Translations under genes and position numbers: made by a program
Notes under the pieces: generated by a model
Database searches by the model: none
What the model was told of the DNA's origin: nothing
The model's input: only the letters and a program-made list of their open reading frames with translations
Part shown: positions 37,309-41,697 of the stretch, one piece after another
How the letters are laid out: each line of letters starts with the position of its first letter
Position numbering within the stretch: the first letter of the stretch is position 1
Assembly: GCA_021803945.1 (NCBI GenBank)
Contig: JAJZKW010000009.1
Coordinates: 1-43,894, forward strand
From: Microcaldota archaeon
Lineage (GTDB): Archaea; Micrarchaeota; Micrarchaeia; Micrarchaeales; CABMGC01
Length of the DNA: 43,894 bases
Direction of reading: 5' to 3'

Positions 37309-37383
37309 GGGCATGTGGCGCAATTTGGATAGCGCATCTGGCTTCGGACCAGATGGTTGCGGGTTCAAATCCCGTCATGCCCG
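37309..37383 (+). tRNA. tRNA-Arg(TCG), intron-less; probable integration target
   Basis: GGGCATG/CATGCCC acceptor, TCTGG-CTTCGGA-CCAGA anticodon arm, GCGGG-TTCAAAT-CCCGT T arm. Confidence 0.95.
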
Positions 37384-37384
37384 T
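37356..37384 (+). repeat. att-like direct repeat, copy in intact tRNA-Arg
   Basis: GTTGCGGGTTCAAATCCCGTCATGCCCGT; 28/29 identical to 39297-39325. Confidence 0.9.
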
Positions 37385-37601
37385 TTTCTGATACGCTGAT
37401 GGTTAGGCTTTCCGCGGGCTGTGCATGATGAATATAGAGCTGGTGAAGCTTATTCTGGGCCATTAGTGCGACTTCTTTTCATTGCGACCCGTTTCTCATA
37501 GCGTAACATTCAAAGCCGAAGCATAGAGGAAATCAAAAACCCTGACGAGGTATGTATGCCTGAACCTCTGACTTCAATACATGGAAGCCTCCCCTCCCTG
37601 T

Positions 37602-37742
37602 TTAATCAGCAGGTCTTGCACACTCTGCCTGCGTCGTAGCGTCAACCTCCTCAAATTTGACATTATTGCTTATCGGGTAGTTCCTTGCATTTGCGATGTT
37701 ATTCACCATCAACATAAAGTGTGATTCTCTTTGCCATATCAT
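37602..37742 (-). CDS. 46-aa ORF translationally coupled (ATGA) to the ATPase gene
   Basis: MIWQRESHFMLMVNNIANARNYPISNNVKFEEVDATTQAECARPAD*; its ATG overlaps the ATPase TGA. Confidence 0.4.
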   Translation of the reverse strand: MIWQRESHFMLMVNNIANARNYPISNNVKFEEVDATTQAECARPAD

Positions 37743-39010
37743 TCAGTCTGTTGTTTCTCTTGAAGAAGCCATTTCCATGCAGGTGTGCTTTGTATTCCGT
37801 CAAACTCCGCCTCCTGATCATAGGTTATCAGAATCGGCTCGTTGCCGAATTTCTTCTGCGCCTCTTTCAAGCCGTTAACCTCCCTCCTTCTGTTCTCTTC
37901 GTTTATCGTATGGCAAACCTGTATTGAATTCCCTTTTGTTATGAAGTCGCATTCAAATCCATTTGTGTAGTAGTTCAGTTGGGTTTTCTTTCTCCGAATG
38001 AGCTCTATCGCAACGATATTCTCCAATAATCTTCCCGCGTTCTTCTCTGTGTTGTAGTAGTTTATGAAGCCATGGTCGAAAAGATACTCTTTCTTTAAGT
38101 AAGCTGACTCCTTTTTGAATGATTTCTGCTTCGCTTTCAGGAAGAAGCAAAAATATATGTCCTCTACGATTTTCGAATACTTCTGAATCGTGGAGGTGCT
38201 GGACTTGTAAGACGAACTTTTTGCGAAGTTGTTGAACTTGTTGATCGAGTAATCGCCGCCATACTGTCTTGCTAGGAACTGCATGAACAGACGCATCAGG
38301 TCCGTGTTGGTTATCCCGTACCTTTCTATTATGTCCTGAAATAGCATCGTTTTGAAGTATTGGTCAATGAATTCTAGTTTGTTCTCCAATACTATCTCAG
38401 GGAAGCCGCTCAATGCAACGTACTCATCGAAAGCCTTTTTCACCTTTGTCTTGGTAGGGCCGAATTCCCAGCCCTTTTCCAAGGCAATCCCTTTTAGATT
38501 GACGAATTCCTTGAATGAAAACGGCAGAACCTGGATTGGATAGTCCCTACCCCTCAATGAAGTAGCTATCTCTCTGCTAAGCAACTTCGAATTCGACCCA
38601 GATACGTAAACCTTATAATTTTCGTCATTTAGTCGTCTTACAAACCGTTCCCAACCGGTTATATTCTGTATCTCATCGAGGAATAGGATTGGCTTGCCTT
38701 CCCCGTATAGCTCGCTATAAGCGGTTAGTATTAGATTCAGTTGATTAGCCTTAAGCTCTGCAAGCCTTTCGTTCTCGAAGTTCAAGTAGACAATATCCTT
38801 CAATTGATGATCTGCATCAAGAAGTTCCTTCATTAGCTGGTATAAGACAAACGTCTTCCCTGCCCTCCTTGGCCCGATTACGACTATGACTTTGTTGACT
38901 TTTTTGAATTCACTGAATCTTATGTCTCGAGGTATGATCTGTGGCAACTGTGAGGAATGGAAACGCATCAGCATCTCCTTTATGGCGTTCTTCAATTCGA
39001 AACCATCCAT
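37739..39010 (-). CDS. AAA family ATPase with DUF4143-like C-terminal region
   Basis: VIVVIGPRRAGKTFVLYQLM (Walker A), PILFLDEIQNITGWERFVRRLND (Walker B), YVSGSNSKLLSREIATSLRGRD, C-terminal ELIRRKKTQLNYYTNGFECDFI. Confidence 0.88.
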   Translation of the reverse strand: MDGFELKNAIKEMLMRFHSSQLPQIIPRDIRFSEFKKVNKVIVVIGPRRAGKTFVLYQLMKELLDADHQLKDIVYLNFENERLAELKANQLNLILTAYSELYGEGKPILFLDEIQNITGWERFVRRLNDENYKVYVSGSNSKLLSREIATSLRGRDYPIQVLPFSFKEFVNLKGIALEKGWEFGPTKTKVKKAFDEYVALSGFPEIVLENKLEFIDQYFKTMLFQDIIERYGITNTDLMRLFMQFLARQYGGDYSINKFNNFAKSSSYKSSTSTIQKYSKIVEDIYFCFFLKAKQKSFKKESAYLKKEYLFDHGFINYYNTEKNAGRLLENIVAIELIRRKKTQLNYYTNGFECDFITKGNSIQVCHTINEENRRREVNGLKEAQKKFGNEPILITYDQEAEFDGIQSTPAWKWLLQEKQQTE

Positions 39011-39296
39011 ACTTACCGAATTAGTTAAGTCGGTTTGTATATTTAAATCTTTCTTTTAAAAGAAAGATATCCTAGTAAATATTTCGTTTGAAAGAACAAA
39101 TGTTAATATGCATTCTAGTACCTAAGGTCTGTTTCTGGGTTCGGATTCGAGTTAAAACCGCACAAGGCGTCTATATAGGCTTGGGGCGGGAAATAACTGT
39201 GAATAATCGGGATTCAATTGCAAGCAAATGTGTTTAATCGGGATTGCTATGGCTAGAAAGGATACACGTCGAACTTTGTCAATTCTTCTATCTATT

Positions 39297-39325
39297 GTTG
39301 CTGGTTCAAATCCCGTCATGCCCGT
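39297..39325 (+). repeat. Displaced 3' fragment of tRNA-Arg(TCG)
   Basis: GTTGCTGGTTCAAATCCCGTCATGCCCGT; last 23 nt identical to 37362-37384. Confidence 0.92.
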
Positions 39326-39371
39326 CCATCTTCGGAGAGCTTGGGGAGACGACAAGGCTTATTTAAAATGG

Positions 39372-39497
39372 CTATGCGAATACAGAATCCTTTATGTGCC
39401 CAGGCAAAGCGAGCGCTATCATTAGCGCTTTGTGCGCCTTGACCTCCTCCTTTACAAGTTTGTCAAGTTCCTCTTCTGTAAGTTTTTCGTCTTTCAT
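39372..39497 (-). CDS. 41-aa ORF overlapping the 3' end of the Fic/Doc-like gene
   Basis: MKDEKLTEEELDKLVKEEVKAHKALMIALALPGHIKDSVFA*; 35-nt out-of-frame overlap with 39463..39858. Confidence 0.4.
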   Translation of the reverse strand: MKDEKLTEEELDKLVKEEVKAHKALMIALALPGHIKDSVFA

Positions 39498-39858
39498 TTA
39501 GATCAACTATCCATGTTGAAAATATCTTTGAGAAGGTCTCTCTTGAAAGCCTTCCGTCTCTGATCTTTTGGCTTGTGAATTGCACATCTGCTATAGGAAT
39601 GTCAGCAAGCTTCTTAGCGTGCCGACGAAGAAACATGTCTGTAGCTATAAATGCTGTCCTTCGGTTTGCTCCTCTGAATAGATGTTCGTAAACAATTCTG
39701 TAATAATAGGTAATTGCGGCTTCGATTGGCTGCGTTTCGTAGGCTTCCTTGACTATTGATCTTATGGTTTCCTTCTTGAAGTTTGTCTGCTTCTTTCCTT
39801 CGTATTCATTGAGGCGTTTGTTTATTCCCAATAGAATGTCATAAGTAAGATATCTCAT
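39463..39858 (-). CDS. Fic/Doc-family-like protein (possible toxin)
   Basis: YEHLFRGANRRTAFIATDMFLRRHAKKL resembles the Doc motif HxFxxGNKRTA. Confidence 0.65.
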   Translation of the reverse strand: MRYLTYDILLGINKRLNEYEGKKQTNFKKETIRSIVKEAYETQPIEAAITYYYRIVYEHLFRGANRRTAFIATDMFLRRHAKKLADIPIADVQFTSQKIRDGRLSRETFSKIFSTWIVDLNERRKTYRRGT

Positions 39859-40121
39859 CGCAAGGCCCCTTGCACGAAAAAGGTTATATCGTCAAAGATA
39901 TATAAAGATGTCTGATATTTTGTAAGCGCGATCACTGAGGAAAGTATGTATAATACATCATTGTATGCGTAAGTATTTACAATACATGCTCCTTACAGTC
40001 ATAAACATCATGCCCGATTACGTTCGGGGGGCTTGGAAGTACGATAAGAGTATGTTGACGGTTAGGCATATATTAGTATATCGGGCACTAAGCAGTCTCA
40101 AAAAGGCAGCGCGGTTATTGA

Positions 40122-40677: not shown

Positions 40678-41697
40678 TTGATAATTATGCGCCCTAGAGC
40701 AAGCAATGCGGATGTAAATGCTGTAGTCCGCAGGATAAGAGCCTTGGGGCTCAGACCAGACGTTTCGCGCGGAGAAGCGCAGACAGTTATAGGCATAATC
40801 GGGGATGAGAGCAGGGTAAATTTTGACCAGATGAATTCGATGGCTGGAGTAGAGTCAACAAGGAGGATCCAGGCTCCGTACAAGCTGATGACTAAGGAGT
40901 ATCTCCAGGAGGAAAGGATAATTGTCACGGTTAACGGAGAAGCGATCGGAAGAGATGGCGTTGTGTATATTGCTGGGCCGTGCTCAGTGGAGAGTTATGA
41001 TCAGCTTGCACGCATAGGGGAACAGGTGAAGGCTGCCGGAGCACACATGCTGCGTGGAGGAACGTTCAAGCCAAGGACGTCTGTCCACTCGTTTCAGGGG
41101 CTTGGGGAAGAAGGGCTTAAACACCTGCAGAGGGTGGGACAGCAGCTGCAGATGCCCGTTGTGACTGAAGTGAGAAGCGAAAGCCAGGTGGAATTGGTTG
41201 CGGAGTATGCCGATATACTGCAAATAGGGACTAGGAATATGTATAACCAGGATCTTCTTGAGGCTGCAGCAAAGCAGGGCAAACCTATCCTATTCAAAAG
41301 AGGACAAGCATCGCAGATTTCAGAATATCTAAGTTTTGGCCAATATATAGTCGCTAATGGAAATAGGCAGATAATACTATGTGAACGCGGGATAACGCCT
41401 CTGGGAGGAGCGTTTGAACAGGATACTAGAAATACCCTTGATATCTCCGCTATACCTGTCCTTATGTCAAAGACGCCGTTCCCAATCATAGTCGACCCTA
41501 GCCATGCAACAGGGAGGCGCGAGCTTGTGCTTCCAATGAGTATGGCTGCAGTTGCGGCAGGCGCTCACGGCCTGATTATAGAGGTCCATGATAGGCCGGA
41601 AGAGGCATTGAGCGATGGCGCGCAGTCGCTGAAACCGGACCAATTGAAGGAGCTGATACGCAGGTGCAATGCGATAGGCGAGCTTGCACGGGATTAG
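40678..41697 (+). CDS. aroF: 3-deoxy-7-phosphoheptulonate (DAHP) synthase with N-terminal ferredoxin-like domain
   Basis: VYIAGPCSVESYDQL, LRGGTFKPRTSVHSFQGLGEEGL, LQIGTRNMYNQDLL, IVDPSHATGRRELV. Confidence 0.93.
   Translation: MIIMRPRASNADVNAVVRRIRALGLRPDVSRGEAQTVIGIIGDESRVNFDQMNSMAGVESTRRIQAPYKLMTKEYLQEERIIVTVNGEAIGRDGVVYIAGPCSVESYDQLARIGEQVKAAGAHMLRGGTFKPRTSVHSFQGLGEEGLKHLQRVGQQLQMPVVTEVRSESQVELVAEYADILQIGTRNMYNQDLLEAAAKQGKPILFKRGQASQISEYLSFGQYIVANGNRQIILCERGITPLGGAFEQDTRNTLDISAIPVLMSKTPFPIIVDPSHATGRRELVLPMSMAAVAAGAHGLIIEVHDRPEEALSDGAQSLKPDQLKELIRRCNAIGELARD

Follow-up and report, generated by a model that had tools for sequence, protein, structure and literature searches.

A Micrarchaeota tRNA-Arg(TCG) gene very probably carries the remnant of an element with a split tyrosine integrase

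The window, i.e. the complete stretch of 43,894 nt that was analyzed, is contig 18 of a 902-kb genome (G000), and the relatives used for comparison are Micrarchaeota MAGs; the data consist throughout of assemblies, among them many incomplete MAGs. Downstream of an intact tRNA-Arg(TCG) gene, an ATPase gene is followed by a promoter-like region and a short reading frame that enters a displaced copy of the tRNA 3' end; to the right of this copy a second, smaller unit with a Doc/Fic-like toxin gene adjoins (Table 1).

Table 1. Features at the tRNA-Arg(TCG) locus, in coordinates of the window
Feature	Position	Strand	Basis
Intact tRNA-Arg(TCG), integration target	37309-37383	+	ARAGORN; synteny (hyp136-polB side) in 12 relatives
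attL core = tRNA 3' end	37356-37384	+	28/29 to 39297-39325
Place of int(C) in integrase-bearing relatives; here non-conserved DNA	37384-37738	.	G010 has int(C) there
AAA_14 + DUF4143 ATPase, 423 aa, PDC-S01, converges on the tRNA	37739-39010	-	PF13173 6e-38, PF13635 1e-15
Palindrome TTTCTTTTAAAAGAAA joined to TATA-like TTTAAAT, probable ATPase promoter/operator	39041-39068	-	Kept in all close relatives
Right end conserved across the integrase-element family, comprising int promoter region, operator-like/arm-like repeats and int(N)	39154-39302	+	Sequence homology
TATA-like element (CTATATA), upstream of int(N)	39167-39180	+	Position kept in most right ends; function inferred
Pair of direct repeats (39195-39214, 39226-39245) with the core AATCGGGATT, possible arm sites for the integrase	39195-39245	+	Kept in relatives
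int(N), MARKDTRRTLSILLSIVAGSNPVMP, first 25 codons of the split tyrosine integrase, in frame through the tRNA core	39249-39323	+	
attR core = displaced tRNA 3' end	39297-39325	+	28/29 to attL; one mismatch, CTGG for CGGG
Possible antitoxin ORF (41 aa) in overlap with the Doc gene	39372-39497	-	No family match
Doc/Fic-like toxin, 131 aa, second unit	39463-39858	-	PF02661 6e-7 (above cut-off); phrog_577 Doc-like toxin 1.5e-8
Diverged third att-like copy (TCATGCCCG + 32 nt) that closes the second unit on the right	40008-40048	+	

The initial annotation had described the bracketing repeat as an attL/attR pair, and its coordinates proved exact: 37356-37384 and 39297-39325 agree at 28/29 positions with an offset of 1941 bp, and the terminal 23 nt are identical. 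A repeat search of the window extended the match to 30/32, starting at 37353 and 39294 with the same spacing of 1941. The chance expectation for exact 23-mer repeats in the window is ~1e-9, and throughout the 902-kb genome this 23-mer occurs at attL and attR only; three near matches with 1-3 mismatches belong to two other tRNA-Arg genes and to one tRNA-Gln gene with an intron. The mismatch between the two copies (CTGGTTC) was found also in the right ends of elements in G013 and G261, which belong to other genera, and this argues that it was brought in by the element.

To the left of the tRNA, hyp136 and polB are conserved in genomes of the same genus, whereas the right side differs in nearly every one of them from the tRNA end on. 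An empty site for the window locus was not found among congeners, which have other DNA downstream of tRNA-Arg(TCG). The right-hand neighbour, an AsnC-like gene, was searched for as orthologous flank in 12 congeners and was present, but elsewhere in their genomes.

The att reading was borne out by the flank that precedes the displaced repeat. In the congener G010 the same tRNA-Arg(TCG) harbours an 11.1-kb element with a tyrosine integrase, bounded by perfect 22-nt repeats 11,146 bp apart, and the attR end of this element is homologous to window positions 39154-39324 (136/175 identities into the core; 79% identity over the ~145 nt before the repeat). In 11 genomes this end recurs, each time followed at fixed spacing by a displaced tRNA 3' end (Arg, Ala, Lys or a degenerate Val). 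A search of all the order's 164 genomes for a 32-nt motif from the window end, with the reversed pattern as control, yielded one hit in each of 11 genomes and none for the control; a displaced tRNA 3' end followed 82-84 nt after the motif in 11/11 cases (Arg 7, Lys 2, Ala 1 and a degenerate one in G034). Over 129-148 nt the window right end is 62-86% identical to ten other right ends, each of which precedes a displaced tRNA 3' end. Judged by these alignments, the window repeats are a genuine att pair. The G010 element (L139, contig C11, 6519-17665) encodes, besides its split integrase, a HerA/DUF87-type ATPase and an Eco57I-type restriction-modification enzyme.

The earlier statement that the insert holds no recognisable integrase needs correction, since an int(N) remnant with its promoter lies inside it at 39249-39323. 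The ATG frame of the window right end reads MARKDTRRTL...VAGSNPVMP across the tRNA core. In both G010 and G013, the open frame of the tRNA-side integrase extends backwards into the tRNA and is a continuation of the frame that starts at the ATG of the far end. In all nine elements with a recognisable far copy of the tRNA end, int(N) is ATG-started, 22-53 codons long and in the frame of int(C), while the other two frames across the core gave 0/9 and a single 4-codon case. One common frame of int(N) and int(C) across the core places attP inside the integrase gene, so that integration parts the gene into these two pieces. Thus, as the reading frames indicate, integration splits the integrase gene in the manner of the SSV-type 'suicidal' integrases. 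Translation of int(N) is supported by its frame, its start codon and the conservation of the end, and not by codon constraint: changes at the three codon positions revealed no excess at the third (76/73/69), and constraint of int(N) as a protein is therefore not demonstrated.

The integrase was then searched in 164 genomes of the order and was present in 82 of them; 30 loci were fetched and examined. In 25 of the 30, a distance of 75-277 nt separates the start from the 3' end of a complete tRNA in the same orientation, designated by ARAGORN as Arg, Val, Ser, Leu, Asn, Asp, Glu, Lys, Pro or Cys, and 23 of these 25 (23/30 overall) are open in frame into the tRNA. Pfam profiles detected PF00589 alone in all 13 family members scanned, and PF16795 (Phage_integr_3) had no match in any of the 13; the nearest solved structures are XerA/XerC-like recombinases. 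The PF00589-only matches and the Xer-like structures, rather than a tree, point to an origin independent of the SSV-type integrases. In a wider sample of the phylum, most members of the integrase family came from this order; a different family of the class contributed weaker ones.

In the right ends L160, L163, L167 and L161 (in G013, G102, G261 and G269) at least two different tRNA 3' ends stand in a row, in one frame with int(N). Serial tRNA 3' ends of this kind are possibly a record of target switching. In L081 (1230-1400, minus strand) and also in L161, repeated GGGTTCGGGGT cores, each flanked by an inverted repeat of its own, lie within the N-terminal part of the integrase frame. On balance, we lean towards the view that the Micrarchaeota possess a large family of self-splitting Xer-like (PF00589) tyrosine integrases that include the translated tRNA 3' end and arose independently of the SSV/pTN3/pT26-2 (PF16795) lineage; the serial tRNA ends in one frame would then record target switching, and the split halves would leave behind ATPase/toxin islands with usable att sites.

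In the window island the att sites are kept, and genes for integrase and transfer are absent. A tblastn search of the island for int(C) gave no match to the integrase. A 15-nt resemblance to G010 beside the window tRNA was rejected as an int(C) remnant; it scores 9, and shuffled sequences reached up to 11. Two further details of the initial annotation did not hold. The 46-aa ORF coupled to the ATPase gene is not upheld as a gene: in the nearest relative, whose ATPase is 93% identical, conservation is confined to ~64 nt on both sides of and beyond the ATPase stop, and the frame ends early. Likewise, the contrast in codon choice turned out to be weak, with a GC content of 0.42 for the ATPase gene vs 0.42-0.52 for neighbouring genes and a mean log codon frequency of -1.10, which the values of the neighbouring genes (-1.00 to -1.21) bracket; codon bias is not distinguishing as a sign of foreign origin. 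A related integrase (55% identical) is encoded in the same genome at G000:C10:1520-2413 and retains the family-invariant R, K, H-R, H and Y. The proposal that this PF00589 gene is XerA was rejected, because direct comparison puts it in the split-integrase family.

The gene inside the island encodes an AAA/DUF4143-type ATPase as originally proposed (profile matches in Table 1). Its residues 17-418 match the PADLOC profile PDC-S01 over the full length (E 4e-104), and the AlphaFold2 model is confident (pLDDT 88) with two domains. No sequence match was obtained in the PDB and no viral relative in IMG/VR, and the fold search retrieved general archaeal AAA+/ORC-like ATPases only (TM ≤0.42 by query length). 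PDC-S01 is a candidate system, ranked by one survey as the fourth most common defence family in prokaryotes; its published description is that of an ATPase with a fused PD-(D/E)-X-K domain (PMC12988326). The alignment preserves E353, D355 and Q364-V365 but not the lysine of the PD-(D/E)XK motif, which makes nuclease activity of the ATPase doubtful. The ATPase gene is probably an anti-virus or conflict gene.

Relatives of the ATPase with at least 78% identity occupy, including the window, seven loci in different genera of two families, and most genomes of the same genus are without the gene. All close relatives have the palindrome with the TATA-like element upstream of their ATPase, where it forms the upstream limit of their shared DNA. 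In five of the seven loci (Arg-TCG, Val-TAC, Val-CAC twice, Ile-GAT) the ATPase converges on a tRNA 3' end at a distance of 4-359 bp, compared with 2/38 of the less similar ATPases at a tRNA (Fisher P 3e-4, the loci being not fully independent); in three loci the stop codon abuts the tRNA. Two of the seven lie away from tRNAs, which indicates that the ATPase travels independently. Among the ATPase relatives, L015, L034 and L016 are situated at tRNA-Ile, at tRNA-Val(TAC) and, in one case, off tRNAs, with a common small HTH-like ORF downstream of the ATPase in L034 and L016. Other DUF4143 ATPases (~33% identical), codirectional and between displaced tRNA-Ala 3' ends, were observed in L030 (6003-10004) and L031 (9350-15685).

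For two related ATPase islands congeners provided empty sites, G025 for the island of G034 and G245 for that of G046, with synteny on both sides. Both insertions measure 6.3 kb and start at a tRNA-Val 3' end, and their attR copy matches attL in part only. The island of G034 (L014, contig C2, 10001-16190) lies without an integrase in tRNA-Val(CAC) and contains an apparent heme-synthesis operon, whose ORFs were named from reading the sequence as HemE, a HemC-HemD fusion, ferrochelatase-like, ABM-domain and chlorite-dismutase/ChdC-like. The island of G046 is a tandem; its outer unit (L066, contig C1, 3831-8474) carries a truncated integrase of the same family together with a RelA/SpoT-domain protein (PF04607) and GNAT-like and polysaccharide-deacetylase-like proteins.

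The second unit of the window measures 0.69 kb between attR and the third att-like copy. This copy is 71% identical over 41 nt to 39316-39356 (binomial P ~7e-9 at one offset), and its presence indicates that the locus consists of two units in tandem. In addition to the matches in Table 1, the Doc-like gene scored 1e-6 with NCBIfam TIGR01550 (DOC_P1), below the cut-off of that profile, and the Fic/Doc motif HxFx(D/G)xNxR is read in its sequence as HLFRGANRRTAF. The 41-aa ORF had no family match in profile searches including PADLOC. A Doc-like unit behind the island means that the site was used at least twice, and the Doc-like unit is older than the ATPase island. Beside the right limit of the island, at 40678-41697, lies a gene for a DAHP synthase with an N-terminal FXD domain and low codon fit, possibly acquired too.

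Altogether, we consider it very likely that 37384-39325 is the remnant of an integrated split-integrase element, from a family widespread in this Micrarchaeota order, which has lost int(C) and still has its ATPase in place. In such an element attP would lie within the 5' part of the integrase gene, and insertion at the tRNA 3' end would cut the gene: int(N) with the promoter would come to lie at the far end (attR) and the catalytic int(C) on the tRNA side (attL). In an excised circle the split gene would be joined again and expressed. After an element of this type had entered tRNA-Arg(TCG), its integrase halves would have been useless; int(C) would subsequently have been deleted and the ATPase retained, perhaps as cell protection. 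The initial annotation had offered three options, a decayed element, a satellite mobilised in trans and a minimal cargo island; of these, the data agree best with an integrase-bearing element that decayed and retained its att sites, and less well with the trans-mobilised satellite.

An origin as an integrase-less satellite, with the ATPase at attL, a right end of the int(N) type at attR and a helper whose integrase moves the unit, is nevertheless the foremost alternative, albeit an unlikely one. It would agree with the two further ATPase islands that have int(N)-like ends (MKNDNTRRQ... in G034; MKLEKEGKN, then two stops, in G046) and an ATPase stop abutting the tRNA end, with the common geometry of five loci at four tRNA types, and with the related integrase with intact catalytic residues in the same genome. 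However, cargo and lengths differ (1.5, 1.9 and 6.2 kb), the att pairs of G034 and G046 are degenerate, and two close ATPase relatives are found outside tRNA sites. Still less probable is a homing-like mobility of the ATPase gene itself, in which the PD-(D/E)XK-type domain would cut tRNA 3' ends and the gene would be copied in. Such behaviour would account for promoter and gene being the only DNA common to close relatives, for the stop codon abutting the tRNA end in three loci and for the location of 5/7 at tRNAs, and PDC-S01 is described as a fusion with a PD-(D/E)-X-K domain (PMC12988326); but the motif lysine is missing, the bracketing repeats are the ends of the integrase family, and ATPase copies exist away from tRNAs. 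Finally, the displaced repeat is hardly the 3' remnant of a second, tandem tRNA-Arg(CCG) gene: although several congeners (G002, G005, G007, G008 and one G014 contig) have, ~9-20 nt behind tRNA-Arg(TCG), a tRNA-Arg(CCG) whose 3' end is the same, and a search of G000 revealed no copy of this gene, the 140 nt that precede the repeat correspond to integrase-element attR ends in ten genomes instead of the tRNA-Arg(CCG) 5' part, the single mismatch recurs in element ends of other genera, and the alignment of the G010 flank identifies the window repeat as attR, so that this explanation is refuted. The initial annotation had named another tRNA-Arg pseudogene lineage as a condition that would refute the att reading; the tandem tRNA-Arg(CCG) of the congeners does not account for the flank.

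As the remnant of a split-integrase element, the window island would now be immobile by itself, and its att sites would stay as landing or excision sites for related integrases. Since its ends are those of the active family, a full integrase from elsewhere could in principle excise the element or add another one at either end; the island may be open to cross-mobilisation of this kind, and its ATPase may have a role in defence. The element family would represent a second, unrelated case of gene splitting and thus raise the question why an integrase that breaks up its own gene should be favoured in archaea. Its presence in half of the searched genomes of the order would offer many natural replicates of a tRNA target change by a split integrase. 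It would also explain by what route defence genes reach the tRNA genes of host-dependent archaea whose genomes are close to 1 Mb and, likewise, how G034 gained a whole heme-synthesis operon at a tRNA gene. The priority of split PF00589 integrases is not certain, the literature having been covered in part; a review places all suicidal integrases in PF16795 families, as one recent invention, and DPANN archaea are not mentioned there (PMC8371274).

Compared with known systems, the cargo gene corresponds over its whole length to PDC-S01 (PADLOC; PMC12988326; E 4e-104), with no known difference. Like the integrase-less integrated plasmids of archaea (Methanococcales, PMC8371274), the window island is integrated without an integrase gene; unlike in those plasmids, one integrase half still marks its end. 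With CIMEs (PMC5704250) it shares the loss of integration genes, the retention of attL and attR and the tandem accretion at one site, but the window island is archaeal and derives from an element whose integrase would already have been broken by integration, and it may be mobilisable. The closest parallels are the elements with SSV-type integrases (SSV1, pTN3, pT26-2; PMC8371274): there, too, the integrase gene contains attP, insertion at the 3' end of a tRNA gene puts int(N) and int(C) at opposite ends, and the catalytic part resides in int(C). In contrast to them, the integrase described here is a Xer-like PF00589 protein with no PF16795 match, its int(N) is very short (~22-53 codons), and its hosts are Micrarchaeota.
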